Below, piece after piece: positions 35,815 through 45,493 of a DNA stretch of 45,493 nucleotides (the stretch's first letter is position 1; each line of letters begins with the position of its first letter). Made by a program: the position numbers and the translations under genes. The DNA is from Bacteroidaceae bacterium (GTDB taxonomy: Bacteria; Bacteroidota; Bacteroidia; Bacteroidales; Bacteroidaceae). The stretch lies in the NCBI GenBank assembly GCA_017464815.1, contig JAFTYI010000032.1, positions 1-45,493 of the forward strand, written 5' to 3'. The notes below the pieces were generated by a model that saw only the letters and a list, made by a program, of their open reading frames with translations, searched no databases and was not told the DNA's origin.

Positions 35815-36200
35815 ATTTTGCCCATTTTTCGTGCGGAAGAAAACTTGCACCCATATACGCGATTCTCACGCGGTCAGTTTTGCATAAATATACGCTCGCT
35901 GTATATTTATGCATTTTCCGGTCGGGAAAACCAAGTAAAAATCGCCTTTTTCCTACCCTTTAGCGGCTAACCTCTCGAGAGGTCAGCCGCTGACCACTTG
36001 AGAGGACACGGGCTAACCGCCGGACACCTTAGCCGCTGACCACTTGAGAGGAGACGGGCTGACCACTTTGTGCCTTGCCTCATCCCCTCACCTTCACATT
36101 GTATATATATGCAAAAATGCCCCTCTCACGGAGTGTTTCCCTTTGATGAAATAGAGATAAAATAGAAGTGCGGGATTTATTACTGGAGTTTGTAAAGAAA
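35815..36200 (+). repeat. 386-bp dispersed intergenic repeat, copy 2
   Basis: Second copy of the element at 24861-25246, same strand and length. Here the AT hairpin is perfect (TGCATAAATATAC, 7-base loop, GTATATTTATGCA). The GC-rich block forms a near-perfect 30-bp palindrome: AGCGGCTAACCTCTC pairs with GAGAGGTCAGCCGCT at all but one position. It is directly followed by the long G/C hairpin element and then by the probable RNA gene. Confidence 0.85.
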
Positions 36201-36288
36201 AAAGCCCCCTTCGACTCCCCCAAAGGAGAGGGAACTAAGAATGTTTAGTCTTGCTCTCTCCCCCTTTGGGGGAGTTGGAGGGGGCTTT
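36200..36288. repeat. Long G/C hairpin element (intergenic repeat)
   Basis: The arms 36200-36235 (begins AAAGCCCCCTTCGACTCCCC) and 36253-36288 (ends GGAGTTGGAGGGGGCTTT) pair over about 36 bp with few mismatches. An inner ACTAA/TTAGT pairing closes the loop. The form is common between genes in Bacteroidota and could stop transcription from either side, here insulating the downstream RNA and defence operon from clcA. A short version is embedded in the GH2-GH43 gene. Confidence 0.75.
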
Positions 36289-36357
36289 ATTTTATGTTCT
36301 GCAACATATTCTGTGAAATAATTCAGCATTCATAATTCATAATTCACAATTAAAACG

Positions 36358-36843: not shown

Positions 36844-38712
36844 ATGGACAAACATGCCCTGGTAGAAAAGATACGCACCCTTGAGGGATTGACTAACGAC
36901 GAGAAGGCCGACCTGATAGGTCTGTTACGTAGCCACAAAAAGTATGGATTGGTGTGGGAAGAGAAGCCCGAAGAGGTGGAGGAGCGCCTTCGCGACCACC
37001 TGCCCGTGCTGACCGAAGTGAAAGAACGTGCCATCCTCTCCACCGAAGCCGATGCGCCCAATCATATCCTCATAGAGGGCGACAACTTGGAAGCCCTTAC
37101 CGCACTCTCTTATACGCACGAGGGAAAGATTGATGTGATTTACATTGATCCGCCGTACAACACGGGCAACAAAGATTTTACTTACAATGATGATTATGTA
37201 AATAAAGAAAATGAGTTTCGTCATAGTAAGTGGCTTTCATTTATGAGAAGAAGACTCGTTACGATAAAAAGGTTATTAACGAGTGATGGAGTTCTCTTTA
37301 TTTCAATAGGAAAAGAAGAGGTTGCTCAACTTACATTATTGTGCAATGAACTATTTGGTGAGAATAATCAATTAGGTATAGTCAGCCGTATACAAAAGAA
37401 AGGTAATGATAAAGGAAATTTTTTCTCGCCTTCTGTTGACTATGTTTTAGCATATGCTAAAATGAAGGATTATGTAACACCTTTTTTTGTTCCTAATACT
37501 ACTTCCTTCCCTTTAATTGAAACAGAAGGAATCAGGAAAGGAGAATATTATGAAGCAACTAAATCTTTATTTCAAAGTTCTTTAGACCCTCGTCCTAATC
37601 AAAGATATTACATAAAATGTCCTGATGGTAGTTTAGTCATTCCTCCAGGTAATGTTTTCCCTTTGATTAAAGAGGATGCTCAGTTTGTCATCCCAAACTC
37701 CTTGGATGACAAGTGTTGGAGATGGTCTTGGCAAAGTTATATAGAAAAAAGGGATTTGCTAGTTTTTAAAAAAACTAAACGCTCCCCTTTAATCAATCAA
37801 TATGGACTTCAAGCAGAATGGAATGTATATACCAAAAGATACCAAAAAGATGCAGAAGAAAAAGGGAATGTTCCATCCAACTACATAGATGACTGCATCA
37901 ATTCTTTAGGAACCAATCGATTGTCTCTATTAGGACTAGATTTCTCTTTTGCTAAACCTTGCGAATTAATAAAGAGATTAATTCTATTTACTGATAAAAA
38001 CAAAGACATAACGATATTAGATTGTTTTGCAGGTTCTGGAACAACTTTGGATAGTACTATGCAACTCAATGCCGAAGACGGGGGAAACCGCCAATGCATC
38101 TTGGTGACGAACAATGAGAATAAGATTTGCGAAGAGGTGACCTATGAACGAAACAAGCGGGTCATCAATGGCTACACCACACCGAAGGGTGAACAGGTGG
38201 AGGGCTTGAAGCGCAACACCCTGCGCTACTACAAGACGGAACTGTTGAGCCGCGACCGTTCGCCTCGCCACATGCGTGCTTTGGTGAGTGCCGCTACTGA
38301 CCTGCTCTGTATCAAGGAAGACCTCTACACCGAGTTGCCCATGTTTGGCCGATACAAGACACACCCCAAAGCCCTGCGCTACTTTGCCGACGGGAAAGGC
38401 AAGCAGATGCTGGTGCTCTATCGCGAAGAGTATGCCCCCGAGATTGCCGAAGAAATCAAGCAGATGGACTTCGGCAAGGGACGACTGAAGATATACCTAT
38501 TCTCCCCGGGACGCTATGCCTTCGACGATGAGTTCTACGAAGTGCAAGAGAAAGTGCAACTGGTGGCTCTGCCTGCCGCCATCTATGATGCCTACCAACG
38601 GGTGCTCCCCACAAGAAGAGAAAAACTCTTTGAACTGCAAGCCGCTGAGAAGACCGACACCACAGAGATACCCACAGACCTATTCAGCCACGAGGAAGGA
38701 GGTGCACAATGA
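36844..38712 (+). CDS. Type III-like Mod DNA adenine methyltransferase
   Basis: The 622-residue beta-class N6-adenine methyltransferase has the catalytic DPPYNTG (D102-G108) before the SAM-binding FAGSGTT (F395-T401). The roughly 290 residues between hold the target-recognition region. The amino end (MDKHALVEKIRTLEGLTNDE) and the LIEGDNLEALTALSYTHEGKIDVIYI segment are typical of Mod subunits. It likely modifies one strand of a short asymmetric site and guides the Res partner. Bases about 37150-38050 are about one-third GC while both flanks exceed half, so the recognition region appears to have been replaced by recombination. No simple-sequence repeat for phase variation was seen. The gene overlaps res by 4 bases (ATGA). 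Confidence 0.93.
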   Translation: MDKHALVEKIRTLEGLTNDEKADLIGLLRSHKKYGLVWEEKPEEVEERLRDHLPVLTEVKERAILSTEADAPNHILIEGDNLEALTALSYTHEGKIDVIYIDPPYNTGNKDFTYNDDYVNKENEFRHSKWLSFMRRRLVTIKRLLTSDGVLFISIGKEEVAQLTLLCNELFGENNQLGIVSRIQKKGNDKGNFFSPSVDYVLAYAKMKDYVTPFFVPNTTSFPLIETEGIRKGEYYEATKSLFQSSLDPRPNQRYYIKCPDGSLVIPPGNVFPLIKEDAQFVIPNSLDDKCWRWSWQSYIEKRDLLVFKKTKRSPLINQYGLQAEWNVYTKRYQKDAEEKGNVPSNYIDDCINSLGTNRLSLLGLDFSFAKPCELIKRLILFTDKNKDITILDCFAGSGTTLDSTMQLNAEDGGNRQCILVTNNENKICEEVTYERNKRVINGYTTPKGEQVEGLKRNTLRYYKTELLSRDRSPRHMRALVSAATDLLCIKEDLYTELPMFGRYKTHPKALRYFADGKGKQMLVLYREEYAPEIAEEIKQMDFGKGRLKIYLFSPGRYAFDDEFYEVQEKVQLVALPAAIYDAYQRVLPTRREKLFELQAAEKTDTTEIPTDLFSHEEGGAQ

Positions 38713-41063
38713 AACAGATAGCCTATCAACAAAAAGCCGTAAGGGAACTAGTGGACAAAACCATCGACCTGCTGAAACTGAGCGGCAACCGACAACAGTT
38801 AGTATTCAAGGCACCGACTGGTGCGGGAAAGACAGTGATGGCCAGCGAAATGCTAGGCGTACTCACCGAAGAGTTGCAAAGCCGCTCTGACCTGCCCATG
38901 CAAGAGGTGGCCTTCATCTGGATTGCCCCTAACAAACTGCACGAGCAGAGCTACTTCAAGATGAAGAACTACTTTACCGAGACACGCAAGCTGCGTGCCG
39001 TGATGTATGACGAGCTGGACCATACCGACGGCACTATCCGCCCCGGCGAAATACTCTTTGTCAACTGGGCCAGCATCAATAGTGACAACAACGTGATGGT
39101 GCGCGATGGAGAACAAAACCGCTCGCTCTATGAAATCACCCGCCGCACACAGGAGGAACAAGGTACACCTATTATTATAGTCATCGACGAAGAGCATCTC
39201 TTCTGGTCGAAGACCGCCGACAAGTCAAAGAAGGTGCTCGAACGCATCAAGGCCAAGATAGAGATACGCATCAGTGCCACCCCCAAGACACAGACCTACA
39301 ATGTGGTGAATGTGCCCCGCGAGATGGTGGTGAAGGAGGAGATGATAAAGGAGGGAGTCATCCTCAACCCCGATGTGGCCAGCGGATACAACAACGAACT
39401 GGAGCTGAACCAACACCTGATAAAGAAGGCACTCGACAAACGCAAACAACTGGCCGAGGCTTACCACAAACTGGGAATAAACATCAATCCGTTGCTGCTG
39501 ATACAGCTCCCCAACGACACCTCGGAAACCATGACGACAGAGGATGAAGACATTGCCAACCAGGTGAAGGAGTACCTGAATGTGTGCCAAGGCATCAACA
39601 CGGAGAATGGCAAACTGGCCGTGTGGCTCTCGAAAGAGAAACAAAACCTGCAAGGACTGGAAGAGGCCGACAACCTGACGGAGGTGTTGCTCTTCAAACA
39701 GGCCATCGCACTCGGTTGGGATTGTCCGCGGGCTGCCGTGCTCCTCATCTTCCGTAAGCTGACAAGTGACACCTTCACCGTGCAGACGGTGGGACGCATC
39801 CTGCGTATGCCCGAACAGAAGTTCTACACCAACCCCGTGCTGAACAAAGGCTACGTCTATACCGACATCAGCAAAGACCGCATACAGATAGTGGCCGAGG
39901 ATATGGACTACCTGCACACCTCCATGCTACAGGCCGTGCGCCGGTGCGACCTGAAGAATGTGTCGCTCCCCAGTGCCTACGAAGTAAAGCTCAGTGCCGA
40001 CCGTAACCGATTGGGACCAGACTTCAAGAAGGTGCTGACCAAAACATTTGAAGAGTTGTGGTTAGTCAATGGCCAACTTTCACTCTACACGCTGATGGGC
40101 TTTGACGAAGAAACTGACAACAACCGTGAAACAGACACCGAAAGCGTGTTTGCCAAAAACCGACGGGCGGCAGAAAAACTGGGCATCCGATTCGACGTGA
40201 AAAACATCAATGTGGAGATACCCACAGACATCCAGTTCCAAAACGAACTGGGCATCATCGATGCAGGCGAGAGAGTGAAGTTTGCCCGCAGTGCAGGAGA
40301 GGTGAACAGGGTATTCGTAGCCTATTGCCGCTCCTTGCTCGGTAGTTTCGAGCGTGCTCATGGTACAGATGTGCTGGCCAACTACTTGATGGAGGTGATG
40401 GAAACCCTCTTTGAACTCTATGAAAGCGAGGCACAAAAGGTGGTGCTCTACCACACCAACAAGGCCAAATTTACGGACGTGATAGAGAAAGCGCTGAAAC
40501 GCTATGAGAAAGTGCTGAATGAACGACAAGCCGCTGCACGCCAACGCGGATTTGCCAACTACCAATGGGAAGTGCCCGAAGACCGCATCTATCAAGAAGA
40601 GACACACAAGGTGGTGACAGAGATAAAGGATCATGCTCTACTGCCCTATGTGGAGCTGAATGTGGCCTCCAACCCCGAACGGGAGTTTGCCGCCTATCTG
40701 GAAAGTCATGCCGAATACATTGACTGGTGGTATAAGAACGGAGACTCGGGCAAGCAGCACTACTCCATCCAGTATCAGAACCGACACGGAGAAAAGGCAT
40801 TGTTCTATGTCGATTTCGTGGTGAGAATGAAAAACGGGCAAATTTTCCTCTTCGACACCAAAACGGAAGGAAGCGACCCCGAAGCACCCAACAAACACAA
40901 TGCCTTGATAGATTATATCAACAGCGAAGAGAACAAGACACTCGGTTTGAAAGGAGGCATCATCGTGAACAAAGGAGAGAACTGGAAGTATTCGGAATTC
41001 AAGATAGAGACCACCGATGATGCTACCGGCTGGACGGCTTTCTATCCCGAGCAATATAAATAG
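38709..41063 (+). CDS. Type III-like Res: SF2 helicase with PD-(D/E)xK nuclease
   Basis: The 784-residue protein has SF2 motifs: Walker A APTGAGKT (about residues 35-42), motif II DEEH (about D160), motif III ISATPK, and motif VI TVGRILRMPEQKF. The carboxy-terminal nuclease core is YVDFVVRMKNGQIFLFDTK (D702, D716, K718), followed by EGSDPEAPNKHNAL. This fits Res subunits of type III systems, which translocate or slide after Mod recognition and cut DNA. The site DxK in place of ExK is acceptable. It is coupled to mod by ATGA and lies 14 bases before the small gene. All motifs are intact. Confidence 0.92.
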   Translation: MKQIAYQQKAVRELVDKTIDLLKLSGNRQQLVFKAPTGAGKTVMASEMLGVLTEELQSRSDLPMQEVAFIWIAPNKLHEQSYFKMKNYFTETRKLRAVMYDELDHTDGTIRPGEILFVNWASINSDNNVMVRDGEQNRSLYEITRRTQEEQGTPIIIVIDEEHLFWSKTADKSKKVLERIKAKIEIRISATPKTQTYNVVNVPREMVVKEEMIKEGVILNPDVASGYNNELELNQHLIKKALDKRKQLAEAYHKLGININPLLLIQLPNDTSETMTTEDEDIANQVKEYLNVCQGINTENGKLAVWLSKEKQNLQGLEEADNLTEVLLFKQAIALGWDCPRAAVLLIFRKLTSDTFTVQTVGRILRMPEQKFYTNPVLNKGYVYTDISKDRIQIVAEDMDYLHTSMLQAVRRCDLKNVSLPSAYEVKLSADRNRLGPDFKKVLTKTFEELWLVNGQLSLYTLMGFDEETDNNRETDTESVFAKNRRAAEKLGIRFDVKNINVEIPTDIQFQNELGIIDAGERVKFARSAGEVNRVFVAYCRSLLGSFERAHGTDVLANYLMEVMETLFELYESEAQKVVLYHTNKAKFTDVIEKALKRYEKVLNERQAAARQRGFANYQWEVPEDRIYQEETHKVVTEIKDHALLPYVELNVASNPEREFAAYLESHAEYIDWWYKNGDSGKQHYSIQYQNRHGEKALFYVDFVVRMKNGQIFLFDTKTEGSDPEAPNKHNALIDYINSEENKTLGLKGGIIVNKGENWKYSEFKIETTDDATGWTAFYPEQYK

Positions 41064-41077
41064 AGGAGGGGAAGAGT

Positions 41078-41293
41078 ATGCAAAAAGGAATTGACCAGAA
41101 GTTTGTACACTACGGCATCCGGCGGGAAGACCTGACACTGATAGCCGCCATCTGTGAGAAGAACGAAATAGACTTTGACTGGATGAGCGAAAGCATCCTC
41201 CGTGCCTATCATGGCAAGAAGGTGGATGTCATAGAGATGAGCGATGCTGACACAGAGAACATCATCAAAGCCGCTATACAGAAAATAAAATAA
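41078..41293 (+). CDS. Small 71-residue protein of the defence operon
   Basis: The product begins MQKGIDQKFVHYGIRREDLT and continues with LIAAICEKNEIDFDWMSESI, ending in IIKAAIQKIK. It looks mainly helical, is charged, and lacks a signal, membrane segment or known catalytic motif. It has a good ribosome site (GAGGGGAAGAG) and sits 14 bases after res and 21 before the DndD-like gene, so it is surely part of the operon. Small proteins next to DndD-type ATPases have been noted as DNA-modification-system associated proteins. It is shorter than DndE and no DndE motif could be recognised. A regulator, adaptor or ATPase cofactor is possible. Confidence 0.85.
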   Translation: MQKGIDQKFVHYGIRREDLTLIAAICEKNEIDFDWMSESILRAYHGKKVDVIEMSDADTENIIKAAIQKIK

Positions 41294-41314
41294 AGAGAAG
41301 AGGGGAACACGGAT

Positions 41315-43315
41315 ATGATAATCAAGAAAGTACGCATAACGAACTACAAGACCTACCTGTCGCTCGACCTTGACTTGTCGGTGAACGACGAACGCCCCAT
41401 CATCCTGATAGGCGGCATGAATGGCGGTGGTAAGACAACCTTGTTTGAAGCCATCTGCGGCGCCTTATACGGATTGAAGATACACACGAAGGAGGAGTTT
41501 GAAGAACTGTTGAACAACGGAGCCATCCATAGTGTGAAGCCAGAAATACAGTTGGAAGTGACCTTTGTGGGAAGAGTGCTTGGACAGGAGCAGAAGTATG
41601 TGCTCCGCCGCACTTACATTCTCAATCCGCAGGAGAAACCAGTGGAGAGTGTCTATCTGAATATGCAGGGAAACACCTTTGTGTATGGCACGGCCACACC
41701 TGCCGCCCAACGGGCACAATGTGAACAGCAGGTGAACAAAATAATCAAGGCCAACCTGCCACAGGAGTTGAGCAAATATTTCCTCTTCGATGCCATGCAA
41801 TCGAGCGAACTGTTAAAGAAAAATGTCTTTGCGCAAATCATCAAAGACAATATCGAAAATGTGATGGGCTTCAAAAAGTATCTGCAACTGAAACGGGCAG
41901 CAGAGAAATTGCAACAAGAGTGGGCACAACAACGACTGGCGGCTGAAAAAGAGGCTGCGGAGTATAACAACTATTGTACCCAAAAGCAGGATTTGGAGAA
42001 AGTGTTGGAAGAGAGTGAACGAAAACAAGATGACTTGTACAAGTTCATTACTGCCCAGCAAGAAGAATACGAACGCGCCAAGACCGGAGCAGAGAACACG
42101 GCTCATACACAAAAGAAGATTAACGAATTAGTAGGCAAATTGGATGGAGTATCCAAGAAAGCGAAGGATTATACGGAGGATGTCAGAGCTTTTGTCGAAG
42201 AGATAGAGATGTGTGTGTTCCTGCCCAAAATAGCATCGAACATATCGGCAGAGATAGAACAGATACTGCGCACCAAGGAGGAACTGAAGAAAAGCAACGA
42301 GGCAATAGTACCCGTGGAGACGCTGAAAGAGATTACCAACAAGATTATTGCTTACTTGAAAGGACTTTCGCTCTGCTCTCACGAAGTGGATGAGGAGAAT
42401 GTGGTGCAACACATAAAGGCTCTGCAAGAGGCCAACAAGGCATTAGACAGATTTAATTTCTTGGATGAAGAAGAACTGGAAGCCCTACGCAACCTTTTGC
42501 AAAACAGGGGAAGCAACCGCTTCTTGACACTGGACAGAATACGCACTGAACTGAACACAGAAATGGCCAACATCCCACAATGGGAAATGCAGAAAAGTTC
42601 GCTGCAATCCTCTTTAATCGGTGGCAATGAAGCACTTATCAGACAATATGAAGAGGCACAAAAGGAGTTGGAGCGACTGAAAGCAGAAGATATAAAGACA
42701 AGGGGAGAAATCAAACGGTTAGAAAACATCATACATCGCTTTGACGTACAGATTCAGCAAGAACCCGACATCAAGTATGATACCTTGGTGAAACTTAAAC
42801 CCTTCTTCGAAGAGGTGGCCGACGGTTTGCTGAAGAAAAAGAAAGCACAAATAGAGACGGAGATGCAGCAACAACTGAACAAACTGCTGATTTCCTACAA
42901 AGGCTGCGTGGCACGGGTGGAGTTGTCAGACAGCATAGAGAACTTCAACATCAGGATGTATCACAAAGCCGGCAACCTGATTTCGCTCAACCAACTGAAC
43001 GCAGCCTCGAAACAGATATTCATACAGGTGTTGCTGAAAGTGCTCCGCAACCTTGGCGACTACAACCCACCGGTGATGATTGACACCGTAATGGGTGTGC
43101 TGGACAATGAAAGCCGCGATGCACTGATGGAGGAGTATTTCCCCCAACTTGCAGAACAGACCATCCTGCTCTGTACAACTTCGGAGATACGCAAGGATTC
43201 AGACTATATCAAACTGGAACCTTTCATATCGAAAACCTATACGCTACACAGAGACGTGGAAAGCCAAAGCACCACGGTGAGCGACGGATATTTTGGTGTA
43301 ATTTTAAATGCATAA
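41315..43315 (+). CDS. DndD-like SMC/ABC ATPase
   Basis: The 666-residue protein has a Rad50/SMC-like layout. An amino-terminal ATPase half (KKVRITNYKTYLSLDLDLS; Walker A GGMNGGGKTT, about residues 33-42) is followed by a long helical coiled coil (about 170-560, rich in Glu, Lys, Gln). The carboxy-terminal half carries the Walker B/D-loop PPVMIDTVMGVLDNESRDAL (about D589). SLNQLNAASKQIFIQVLL takes the place of the LSGGE/LSAGE signature and is degenerate. DndD acts in phosphorothioation and related DNA-processing systems, binding or nicking DNA. Here it is tied to a methylase, with no DndA, B, C or E recognised. It lies 5 bases before the HerA-like gene. Confidence 0.85.
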   Translation: MIIKKVRITNYKTYLSLDLDLSVNDERPIILIGGMNGGGKTTLFEAICGALYGLKIHTKEEFEELLNNGAIHSVKPEIQLEVTFVGRVLGQEQKYVLRRTYILNPQEKPVESVYLNMQGNTFVYGTATPAAQRAQCEQQVNKIIKANLPQELSKYFLFDAMQSSELLKKNVFAQIIKDNIENVMGFKKYLQLKRAAEKLQQEWAQQRLAAEKEAAEYNNYCTQKQDLEKVLEESERKQDDLYKFITAQQEEYERAKTGAENTAHTQKKINELVGKLDGVSKKAKDYTEDVRAFVEEIEMCVFLPKIASNISAEIEQILRTKEELKKSNEAIVPVETLKEITNKIIAYLKGLSLCSHEVDEENVVQHIKALQEANKALDRFNFLDEEELEALRNLLQNRGSNRFLTLDRIRTELNTEMANIPQWEMQKSSLQSSLIGGNEALIRQYEEAQKELERLKAEDIKTRGEIKRLENIIHRFDVQIQQEPDIKYDTLVKLKPFFEEVADGLLKKKKAQIETEMQQQLNKLLISYKGCVARVELSDSIENFNIRMYHKAGNLISLNQLNAASKQIFIQVLLKVLRNLGDYNPPVMIDTVMGVLDNESRDALMEEYFPQLAEQTILLCTTSEIRKDSDYIKLEPFISKTYTLHRDVESQSTTVSDGYFGVILNA

Positions 43316-43320
43316 AAGGA

Positions 43321-44904
43321 ATGGAAATCTCATTTTATAACGTCAGACAATCAGAGGGAATATTTGATGAACTGAATGTCATCAAGGAAGCCATTGAAAA
43401 CAAACTGAATCTCAATAGGACAGTCGGCAAAGAGAAAAAAGTGATATTGACCAACAACAAGGTGATGCGTATCTGCTTCATGGTAGGATTGAGTCTGAAC
43501 GGGAAACGTAATCTGGAAGAAGTGGCGGAAATACAACTCTCCAAAACAAGTACGCGTTACGTCCCCAGTTTTTTCACCATGAACAATTTGTCTTCACTTT
43601 ATTCGGCTTTGCTAAAATTGCGATACAAAGAATATGACATAAATTGGGCAGACAACAATCCGTTATTATCACGAATCATTGCTTCAGAGATGCTTCGAGG
43701 ATGCAAGCACCTGATGGATGAAAACAATCTGAATGCTTTCCTTTATGCCATAACTACAGGAAACAGGAATGACGGAAATATCCCATCCCTCGAATTGCTG
43801 ATAGGCGAATATGACGAAGACATGGAAGCCATGCTGGACATCAACAGTCGGGCTATCACCAATTCGCAAATATTGGTGGCAGGCGCAACTGGTTCGGGAA
43901 AGACTAATCTGTTGGCGGTACTTATTCAGCAGATACGTTCGCGCTCGGTAGAAACTGCTTACCCTGTGAACTTCTTACTCTTCGATTACAAAGGAGAGTT
44001 CTCAGATATGGCCAACAACCACTGGCTGAGTCTTTTTGAGACAGACCGGTCTTGTATTCTCGACCCGATAGAACGCCCACTTCCATTCACTCCGTTCAAG
44101 GACTTTACAGGAAAGTCCATCAATGAAATCAACCTCTATTCTACAGAGATGGCTTCTGCCCTCTGCGCATTGGACAATGCAAAAATCAGTGCCAACATGA
44201 GCAACCGACTAAGCGAAGCCATCGTGGACTCTTACAAGAAGACGAAAGGAGTACCCATCTCCTTTGACCTGATGCTGACCAACTATCAGCAGAAACTTCC
44301 TAATCCAGACAAAGACGATAGTGTATCATCCATCCTGAAACAACTCGTGCGAAACAAACTTTTTGAAAAGGAGGATAAAGTCAATCTCATCAAAGACTGC
44401 TTCATCGTGAAAATGGATGCTTTTCCCAAAGATGGTCCAATAGCCAAAGCCATTGTTTATTTCCTGATATCCAAACTGAATATTATCTACGAGGAGTTGG
44501 AAAAGCAAGCTGTAAGCGACGAATATGTACAGATACGCCACTTCACCATCATAGACGAGGCACACTATATGTTGGACTTTGACAACCGCCCGCTACGCAA
44601 TCTGATAGCCGTCGGACGTAACAAGGGACTGAGCATTATCCTTGCCACACAAAACATGGCCAGTTTCCAAAGCAAGCACTTCGACTTTTATGCCAATGCT
44701 CAATACCCGTTGATTATGAAGCAACAAACGATTTCTGACTCCGTCATCAAAGACCTGTTTGGTGTCAGTGGTAAGGAATTGCAAGAAATCCGCTCGGAAA
44801 TAGCAGGCCTACAGAAAGGAGAACTCATCATCAAAGACCAAATGGCATTTGCCCTCGACTTAGGAAAGAAATACAAGAAAATCAAGGTAACACATTTAAT
44901 CTAA
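43321..44904 (+). CDS. HerA/FtsK-type ATP-binding DNA translocase
   Basis: The 527-residue protein has Walker A GATGSGKTN (about 187-195), preceded by TNSQILVA, then NFLLFDYKGEFSDMANN. Walker B is TIIDEAHYML (D412, E413), and a sensor-like IILATQNMASFQS follows, the HerA/VirB4-like RecA fold. About 180 residues before Walker A resemble no named domain to my eye. HerA-like pumps appear in Dnd-type restriction (DndH) and in other defence operons, where they move along DNA and load a nuclease. Here it is the last gene, 5 bases after the DndD-like gene, before a strong terminator. Confidence 0.87.
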   Translation: MEISFYNVRQSEGIFDELNVIKEAIENKLNLNRTVGKEKKVILTNNKVMRICFMVGLSLNGKRNLEEVAEIQLSKTSTRYVPSFFTMNNLSSLYSALLKLRYKEYDINWADNNPLLSRIIASEMLRGCKHLMDENNLNAFLYAITTGNRNDGNIPSLELLIGEYDEDMEAMLDINSRAITNSQILVAGATGSGKTNLLAVLIQQIRSRSVETAYPVNFLLFDYKGEFSDMANNHWLSLFETDRSCILDPIERPLPFTPFKDFTGKSINEINLYSTEMASALCALDNAKISANMSNRLSEAIVDSYKKTKGVPISFDLMLTNYQQKLPNPDKDDSVSSILKQLVRNKLFEKEDKVNLIKDCFIVKMDAFPKDGPIAKAIVYFLISKLNIIYEELEKQAVSDEYVQIRHFTIIDEAHYMLDFDNRPLRNLIAVGRNKGLSIILATQNMASFQSKHFDFYANAQYPLIMKQQTISDSVIKDLFGVSGKELQEIRSEIAGLQKGELIIKDQMAFALDLGKKYKKIKVTHLI

Positions 44905-44943: not shown

Positions 44944-45024
44944 ATCCACATTACAATGTGGATAGACGAAGGAAGTTTGGACAATATAAAAAGCGGATAC
45001 TTCTTGATGAGGTTATCCGCTTTT
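44944..45024. terminator. Tandem hairpins ending the defence operon
   Basis: ATCCACATT (44944-44952) and AATGTGGAT (44955-44963) form a perfect 9-bp hairpin with a 2-base loop. AAAAGCGGATA (44989-44999) and TATCCGCTTTT (45014-45024) form a perfect 11-bp stem with flanking A and T tracts, acting as a terminator from both sides. A weaker TGCGC/GCGCA stem lies at 44916-44934. The stretch 45025-45191 is AT-rich and shows no gene; ACGTCAGTTCGGGATAAG at 45166-45183 could be a worn IS end. Confidence 0.85.
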
Positions 45025-45191: not shown

Positions 45192-45493
45192 TCAAAACAG
45201 CATAATTTGCCCAGTCTTTTCAATGTGAACCCCTTGTAGCGCTTGTGGTTTGTTGTCAAAGAATGAATAAGCAGCCAAAGTAGCGACCACATTCATGATG
45301 AAATTGTTGACAGACCTGTGCCTCGAATGTACCAGTTGTGCGGTGTTCTTGAGACACCAGCCCATAGTCCCCTTCCCGTCAGTCGCCAGCCCTTTGAACA
45401 CCTTATTGGTGTAACGTCTCAGGTTATGGCATACCGGTATCATTGTGGAATCCACGAAACTAATGCCGGAACAACGCCCGAATGCGGACAGAT
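45192..45493 (-). pseudogene. IS982-type transposase remnant, internally deleted and cut by the window end
   Basis: Reading the minus strand from the window edge gives an IS982-like catalytic start (ISFVDSTMIPVCHNLRRYTN, then KVFKGLATDGKGTMGW). This runs straight into the family carboxy terminus (LKNTAQLVHSRHRSVNNF, then IMNVVATLAAYSF). Intact transposases have over 100 residues between these parts, including further catalytic acidic residues, so an internal in-frame deletion has occurred. The amino end continues beyond 45493. The product should be inactive. Confidence 0.8.

Follow-up and report, generated by a model that had tools for sequence, protein, structure and literature searches.

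A type III Mod-Res pair inherited with a DndD-like ATPase, a putative DndC-type docking segment and an apparent DndE-HerA fusion in Bacteroidota

INTRODUCTION

The described systems closest to the locus studied here are the type III restriction-modification (RM) enzymes of the EcoP15I kind and the phosphorothioate (PT) modification core DndC-DndD-DndE. The locus is a set of five genes in a 45,493-nucleotide stretch of DNA from a Bacteroidaceae bacterium (GCA_017464815.1, contig JAFTYI010000032.1), called the window. The genes encode, in order, a type III Mod methyltransferase, Res, a small protein, a DndD-like ATPase and a HerA-type ATPase (genes 1 to 5); the last three are referred to as the trio. 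On sequence comparison, the trio reads as the DndC-dock, DndD and DndE parts of the phosphorothioation core, lacking the sulfurtransferase and provided with a HerA motor, beside type III Mod and Res. The pairing of DndD with DndE-HerA is already known; its coupling to type III Mod/Res was found described nowhere among the papers listed. With somewhat more belief than doubt, we propose that the five proteins form one restriction-modification machine of five subunits, in which a DndD/DndE-HerA assembly captures or pumps DNA and licenses or speeds Res.

In PMC12193691, residues 433-482 of Escherichia coli B7A DndC are predicted by AlphaFold3 to dock on the head of DndD, the DndC changes L458D, E462A and R471A disrupt the DndD contact in pull-downs, and coiled coil-2 of DndD binds DndE. 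A DndD-related ATPase beside a DndE-HerA fusion ("HerA clade 3") was reported by Rakesh, Aravind and Krishnan (2024, PMC10853773) from some of the PT-modification systems. The same paper places HerA-type ATPases also in the DndFGH restriction module, and describes PbeABCD/CxC systems made of an SF2 (superfamily 2) nuclease, a small protein, a coiled-coil ATP-binding cassette (ABC) ATPase and DndE, with a cytosine methylase in some. A full-text literature search for DndD and HerA with type III restriction matched PMC10853773 only; in that paper "type III" occurs in the reference list alone, and the five-gene set does not appear in the excerpts used. Other papers deal, in their available parts, with different systems, a BREX-HerA composite (PMC12839542) and SIR2-HerA (PMC11514479), or report that no Dnd was found in two Prevotella intermedia strains (PMC5608340).

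Compared with type III RM, the window has type III-like Mod motifs with a variable recognition region, a Res of the SF2/PD-(D/E)XK type and a 4-base overlap of the two genes; it differs in that the pair is inherited with three extra genes and in that its Res belongs to a single lineage, which on the tree described below excludes 15 of the 18 Res without a trio. With the Dnd core it shares a DndD-type ABC ATPase, a putative DndE-like domain, an apparent relative of the DndC docking segment and the same gene order, but the five genes are without the DndC catalytic domain, DndA and DndB, the ABC signature is altered, and DndE is apparently fused to HerA. "HerA clade 3" has the same DndD and DndE-HerA pair, and type III Mod/Res partners go unmentioned in the excerpts describing it. 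In contrast to PbeABCD/CxC systems, the window has Res in place of the HKD-SF2 nuclease PbeA, a type III Mod, no CxC zinc hook, and a DndE part that is apparently fused to HerA. The ATPase of gene 5 is closest to the C-terminal ATPase of DndH from DndFGH (DptFGH), but gene 5 is not a multidomain DndH and neither DndF nor DndG was among the matches listed (the best 25 for genes 1 and 4). PglZ, BrxC, DrmA/B and similar BREX or DISARM proteins were absent from the listed Pfam, PADLOC and NCBIfam matches of the five genes and four upstream open reading frames (ORFs).

Membership in plain Dnd, DndFGH, PbeABCD, BREX or DISARM was rejected on these comparisons. A first-pass annotation of this DNA, made by a model from the letters, had placed the set outside Dnd, BREX and DISARM as a composite system; the conserved gene order reported below and the lack of hallmark genes among the matches listed agree with this. 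A named system already covering all five genes would, by that annotation, have spoken against its reading; none was found among the matches listed from the family libraries or in the literature searched, and an earlier listing without a name is possible.

RESULTS AND DISCUSSION

Conservation and inheritance of the five genes

A three-sequence HerA alignment was searched against genome contigs, and the best 80 of 184 relatives were kept. Loci in this survey were therefore chosen by HerA similarity; 57 were testable, with 7 kb or more of sequence available ahead of the HerA match. Mod, Res, the small protein, DndD and HerA occurred in this order in 56 of the 57, mostly from Bacteroidota, which rules out a chance neighborhood of the five genes. 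The lone exception (L048) retains just the end of DndD, and some of the 56 have a short or broken gene, such as DndD in two ORFs in L039. This count of conserved order and the assignment of PADLOC families to the proteins are among the checks that the first-pass annotation had proposed.

The record titles of carriers include Phocaeicola coprophilus, Segatella copri, Xylanibacter ruminicola, Bacteroides nordii, Flavihumibacter, Telluribacter, Bizionia, Algibacter, Aequorivita, Pontibacter and many metagenome-assembled genomes. In the commensal Xylanibacter ruminicola D31d (L044), all five genes are full-length. Carriers titled outside Bacteroidota (L069, L088, L097, L101) may be transfers or binning errors. 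The best places in a plasmid collection had less than 60% identity. A 15.6 kb faecal contig labelled "Bacteriophage sp." (L122, MT835906.1; unverified) holds a complete five-gene set and is the sole such case in the phage collection.

A second survey was based on Res and covered 399 genomes of the window's family, of which 23 had a Res match at E<=1e-30. Besides the window, it gave 11 full-length places at 46-75% identity, 13 at 31-41%, and one fragment (L145) that was dropped. The first-pass annotation had regarded absence of the last three genes beside most close Mod/Res homologues as contrary to a joint system; we found the small protein, DndD and HerA after 8 of the 11 close Res (one HerA is cut by the contig end). 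They followed none of the 13 remote Res, two of which (L157, L182) are uninformative, as the sequence stops in Res itself or in the adjoining 0.3 kb. A weak small-protein match near one remote Res (L177; 31 amino acids (aa), E 0.006) was rejected: the 66-aa ORF is unlike the small protein, and the three genes beside that Res are without a Pfam family. In a phylum survey of 395 genomes, four further Mod-Res pairs at E<=1e-30 were without an adjoining trio, one of them (L117) ending 0.2 kb after Res; PF20306, the Pfam family of the small protein, was present in five of these genomes, above Pfam's cut-off in four.

On a Res tree of 74 rows (56 with the trio and 18 without, L067 included), trio presence changed three times, and 0 of 500 label shuffles were as low. 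A group of 59 rows with support 99 contained all 56 trio rows and three trio-less ones (L150; L151 with L152). The tree is a quick one without a root of its own and carries a long-branch warning for the trio-less rows; its pattern can be explained by a single gain of the trio and two losses.

Motif conservation and divergence were measured over 46 loci, the window and 45 others; 14 of the 60 five-gene loci were omitted for an ORF that was short, broken or cut by a contig end, and L067 was dropped as a near copy of L066. Alignments A3 and A4 had 35 and 36 rows. Pairwise divergence was correlated between the genes (Spearman 0.48-0.87; 0 of 200 permutations as high), with values of 0.87 for DndD-HerA, 0.76 for small protein-DndD, 0.71 for Res-DndD and 0.54 for Mod-DndD. 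Because relatedness alone gives such correlations, they indicate shared inheritance and not contact. This co-inheritance, the identities of the genes and their homologies are established at the level of sequence.

Two independent defenses might also share one transcript: ordinary type III RM, and a DndD/DndE-HerA system acting against invaders or arresting the cell once RM has been overcome. This would agree with the three close Res that lack the trio, with trio-like sets that have another upstream protein (sigma70_r4; L008, L010), and with DndD and DndE-HerA relatives that have no adjoining Res in two genomes (G283, G275). However, trio presence tracks one Res lineage, all but one of the 57 testable loci keep the five genes, and no nuclease or toxin family was among the matches listed for the trio (the best 25 for gene 4), so that we consider two separate defenses quite improbable.

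Mod and Res

The D102-P-P-Y motif of Mod and its FxGxG S-adenosylmethionine motif (F395, G397, G399) were present in 46 of 46 loci. Its best solved relatives are 6k0w "Mod", Mbo45V (7dsu) and EcoP15I Mod (4zcf). Mean pairwise identity in 40-aa segments was 0.09-0.18 at aa 201-360, against 0.62-0.77 at aa 41-160 and 0.76 at aa 401-440; it seems, from this pattern, that the target specificity of Mod changes while the remainder stays constant. Two loci, L084 (1788-5387, in two pieces) and L093 (1619-5452), have a second Mod-like gene in tandem ahead of Res, perhaps providing alternative specificities.

Res has helicase motifs at aa 35-42, 159-163, 189-192 and 359-366, and K41, D160, E161, H163, R363, R366, D702, D716 and K718 are invariant in all 46 loci. 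A search of Res against solved structures gave no match at 0.01, and the Pfam scan gave no PLD/HKD match at 0.001.

The small protein and the tail of DndC

The small protein belongs to PF20306 ("Sp-DndD"), a family said to have been defined by Krishnan et al. in 2020. Judged by profile comparisons, it looks like a free form of the DndD-docking segment of DndC. PF20306 matched the C-terminus of DndC at E<=0.01 in five of seven DndC proteins, exceeding Pfam's cut-off there in one (L162); the DndC of L009 was above that cut-off only in the phylum-survey scan, and the DndC-type protein of L023 gave 0.045. The PF20306 stretches of other DndC proteins (430-475, 429-478, 407-451 and 405-448) lie at the place that corresponds to the B7A docking segment. 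Salmonella DndC has L, E and R at the positions of B7A L458, E462 and R471, and the PF20306 stretches of the other DndC proteins align opposite.

A profile built from eight DndC tails matched 37 of 51 small proteins at E<=0.01 (E values computed for 60 targets; L067 included), compared with 2 of 1020 shuffled and 0 of 51 reversed copies, and gave 0 matches among 68 pieces of the other four window proteins. In a profile-profile comparison, the small protein and the DndC tail matched with P 3.4e-4 and a probability of 38%, against 0.7 and 4.6% for two unrelated pairs. The best E of the small-protein profile against solved structures was 0.03. The family "Sp-DndD" thereby gains a proposed job, that of a DndC docking tail on its own.

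In a different role, the trio, and chiefly the small protein bound to DndD, could hold Res off during normal replication and free it upon infection, and loss of the trio would then be harmful unless Res were lost too. A negative-regulator role has been proposed for the small protein of CxC systems (Rakesh et al., PMC10853773), and the small protein of our loci is fairly conserved, with a mean pairwise identity of 0.53. We nevertheless give restraint of Res very little credence: L151 and L152 persist with full-length Mod and Res and no trio (in L152 just 2.1 kb is visible after Res). The third trio-less locus, L150, has a full-length Res but Mod in two ORFs.

Gene 5 as a DndE-HerA fusion

The HerA residues K194, D412 and E413 of gene 5 were present in 46 of 46 loci. 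The nearest solved relative of the family profile is DptH (7ES4, 1.1e-14), and the 527-aa protein aligns to the C-terminus of DndH only. PADLOC mad8 of the MADS system matched gene 5 at 2.1e-19; no other mad family was among the matches listed (the best 25 for genes 1 and 4).

Remote homologues of gene 5 in L008, L010, L023 and L024 carry a Pfam DndE domain ahead of HerA (2e-8 to 6e-15). The window's gene 5 gave no significant Pfam DndE match. With hhalign, its N-terminus matched a pool of all 12 DndE proteins at P 1.4e-4 and a probability of 53%, compared with 0.1-0.4% for unrelated pairs. The pooled DndE profile found 24 of 48 N-termini at E<=0.01 (window 0.0049) and 1 of 960 shuffles, and a profile of canonical DndE found 15 of 48 (window 0.012) and 0 of 960. 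By these profile comparisons, gene 5 appears to be a DndE-HerA fusion. The first-pass annotation had stated that DndA, DndB and DndC are absent; this holds for DndA, DndB and the catalytic part of DndC, but part of the Dnd modification core does appear to be present, as the putative DndC-type docking segment and DndE-like domain.

The DndD-like ATPase

Gene 4 scored 190 bits with TIGR03185, below the cut-off of 245.85, and so stays under the DndD equivalog level. Its Walker A motif and Walker B aspartate are standard. At the ABC signature the window has LNAASKQ, whereas five other DndD-type proteins have LSxGE; N562 was conserved in 46 of 46 loci, and A564 and S565 in 45. All 46 loci have DTVMG in place of the DTPLG or DTPLA of those five proteins. 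The signature is LNAGAKQ or LNSGAKQ in a side group (L153, L156). The intact catalytic motifs reported by the first-pass annotation were thus recovered in Mod, Res and HerA and in the Walker A motif and Walker B aspartate of gene 4, but not in its ABC signature. The CxC motif is absent from the window protein, and CxC was found at aa 250-450 in 2 of 46 loci.

A DndD tree separates 31 five-gene rows and two dispersed ones from the PT DndD proteins compared by a long branch with full support; long branches meet at the junction, which makes the joining point unsure.

Other contexts of the trio parts

In Methylorubrum extorquens AM1 (L024; NC_012811.1, 4257-9239), a 380-aa tail-less DndC-like protein is followed by a separate 70-aa protein, then DndD and DndE-HerA. 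The 70-aa protein scores as a DndC tail (E 6e-4), and the locus would represent an in-between state with an apparently split DndC. In a further state, seen in L008 and L010, a sigma70_r4 protein (with an HA domain in the case of L008) is encoded ahead of the small protein, DndD and DndE-HerA. L023 (5726-12512, genome G283) encodes a DndC-type protein, DndD, a weak GIY-YIG protein, DndB and DndE-HerA, and lies in the same genome as a scattered trio.

These contexts bear on whether the trio serves modification, scanning self DNA and bringing Mod to its sites, for example in methylation upkeep behind the replication fork, while Res acts in the manner usual for type III enzymes. The corresponding parts of Dnd, namely the DndC tail, DndD and DndE, are components of the modification complex (PMC12193691). 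DndE-HerA beside DndD accompanies the DndC-type proteins of L023 and L024, and published PT-modification systems as well (PMC10853773, excerpts). A search for DndC at E<=1e-10 found none in 13 of 14 carrier genomes, including that of the window (79% complete; the exception is the genome of L105), which makes Mod the obvious replacement. On the other hand, the trio comes after Res in the gene order, and the divergence of DndD tracks that of Res more than that of Mod, though the variable region of Mod lowers its figure. HerA-type ATPases are moreover known from the DndFGH restriction module too (PMC10853773, excerpts). Overall, we consider a service to modification rather unlikely.

Proposed function

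For the five-subunit restriction machine that we favor, we infer that the proteins form a complex, what the small protein couples to, in which order the events occur and that the system acts in defense. Mod would mark self DNA by methylation, with a target specificity set by its fast-changing recognition region, and Res would be an ATP-driven translocating nuclease. Genes 3 to 5 would be the DNA-scanning core of phosphorothioate modification, reused without the sulfur enzyme. The small protein would dock on the head of DndD as the tail of DndC is predicted to do, and DndD would hold or loop DNA; the DndE part of gene 5 would sit on the DndD coiled coil and bring the HerA ring. The DndD/DndE-HerA assembly may then capture incoming DNA, pump it past Mod-Res and license or speed cleavage where methylation is lacking; the small protein would be the coupler. 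In the first-pass annotation, the DndD/HerA pair was conjectured to sense, load or amplify cleavage.

A wider idea, which we put forward tentatively and with more doubt than belief, is that the DndC-tail/DndD/DndE scanning core, having lost its own chemistry, became an add-on module that activates a methylation-based type III enzyme and pumps DNA for it. Once freed, the DndC tail might then serve as a universal adaptor through which various enzymes of modification or cleavage connect to DndD-DndE.

Several observations weigh against the proposed machine or the homologies on which it is built. Type III enzymes cut without such partners, and the trio is absent at 3 of the 11 close Res (L150-L152). 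The window's own small protein reached only 0.019 with the DndC-tail profile, the reverse search of the small-protein profile against DndC was not significant (best 0.094), and the 70-aa protein of L024 is without a Pfam PF20306 match. For the N-terminus of gene 5, the hhalign probability fell to 7.9% with the eight canonical DndE alone and to 0.3% with the four fused DndE alone, and the reverse search against DndE was not significant (best 0.086). The DndD signature is altered. DndE-HerA also adjoins the DndC-type proteins of L023 and L024, so the motor is not tied to restriction. Finally, in two genomes of one genus, G283 (L011, L021, L120) and G275 (L022, L121), relatives of DndD and DndE-HerA are singly placed, with no adjoining Mod-Res, among what look like housekeeping genes. 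A lone small protein occurs in G283 and none was detected in G275; neither genome was among those with Res at E<=1e-30, and Mod-like matches were found in G283 only.

A five-subunit machine of the kind proposed would link methylation-based type III restriction with the phosphorothioate core, two defense families usually presented separately, and it suggests a restriction machine larger than the textbook two-gene type III enzyme. It would offer a testable reason for the occurrence of DndD-DndE cores without sulfur enzymes. Type III restriction in Bacteroidota of the gut and the environment would, on this view, be under a third layer of control, with possible consequences for gene transfer and for work with phages in such hosts.

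Operon layout, inserted genes and flanks

The ORF positions (Table 1) confirmed the five same-strand genes and the spacing given by the first-pass annotation, with a 4-base overlap of genes 1 and 2 followed by gaps of 14, 21 and 5 bases. The proteins have 622, 784, 71, 666 and 527 aa. Family scans with Pfam, PADLOC and NCBIfam assigned them, in order, to N6_N4_Mtase/MTase_III, ResIII/REase_III, PF20306 Sp-DndD, DndD/PbeC-type ABC ATPases and HerA/DndH C-terminus-type ATPases.

Table 1. Features of the five-gene locus (window coordinates)
Feature	Position	Strand	Evidence
Mod, type III DNA methyltransferase	36844..38712	+	DPPYNTG aa 102, DCFAGSGTT aa 393; Pfam N6_N4_Mtase 1.1e-27; PADLOC MTase_III 1.4e-77
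Mod variable region aa 201-360, presumed target recognition domain	37444..37923	+	low pairwise identity, 46 loci
Res, SF2 helicase with C-terminal PD-(D/E)XK-type nuclease motif	38709..41063	+	Pfam ResIII 1.8e-14; PADLOC REase_III 2.6e-20
Res nuclease motif D702...D716-T-K718	40812..40862	+	three residues in 46/46 loci
Small protein, 71 aa, putative free DndC-type DndD-docking segment (PF20306)	41078..41293	+	PF20306 3.3e-9; DndC-tail profile
DndD-like coiled-coil ABC ATPase, altered signature motif	41315..43315	+	PADLOC DndD 6.5e-64, next PbeC 4.5e-57
Altered ABC signature LNAASKQ	42995..43015	+	LSxGE in other DndD-type proteins compared
Apparent DndE-HerA fusion, DNA-translocase-type ATPase	43321..44904	+	Walker A aa 187-195, IDEAH aa 411; Pfam DUF87 7.3e-10; PADLOC DndH C-terminus 1.6e-26
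Putative DndE-like N-terminal domain, about aa 44-139 of gene 5	43450..43737	+	profile comparisons
Intrinsic terminator after gene 5	44989..45024	+	hairpin folding energy

The strong terminator that had been noted after the last gene is borne out by a hairpin of -19.1 kcal/mol (z -5.46) with UUUU at the end of its 3' arm; a simple terminator scan did not include this hairpin among its predictions. A promoter scan found 11 where 12.5 are expected, and Rfam and tRNA scans of the window gave none.

Genes inserted within the set were found in L030, L034, L037-L039, L073, L075, L076, L081, L083, L095 and L104. The six inserts scanned were RhuM (2), Abi_2, YhcG/DUF1016 nuclease (2) and Schlafen AlbA_2 types, of which Abi_2 and YhcG count as defense-type, and other inserts cluster with these. 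Among 117 flanking proteins, those of defense type were pAgo (2), PtuA-like (2), AbiLi (2) and GmrSD (3), counts that come without a background rate.

Upstream of the operon, the intergenic window positions 36200-36290 hold a palindromic G/C-rich repeat, seen by eye, which is possibly a small repeat element. Beyond the terminator, a DDE_Tnp_1_3 transposase fragment on the minus strand (window 45192-45491) runs off the contig end. Elsewhere in this genome (C38:12272-12481; L002, L012), the last 70 residues of another HerA protein survive as a remnant with 94% identity to gene 5.

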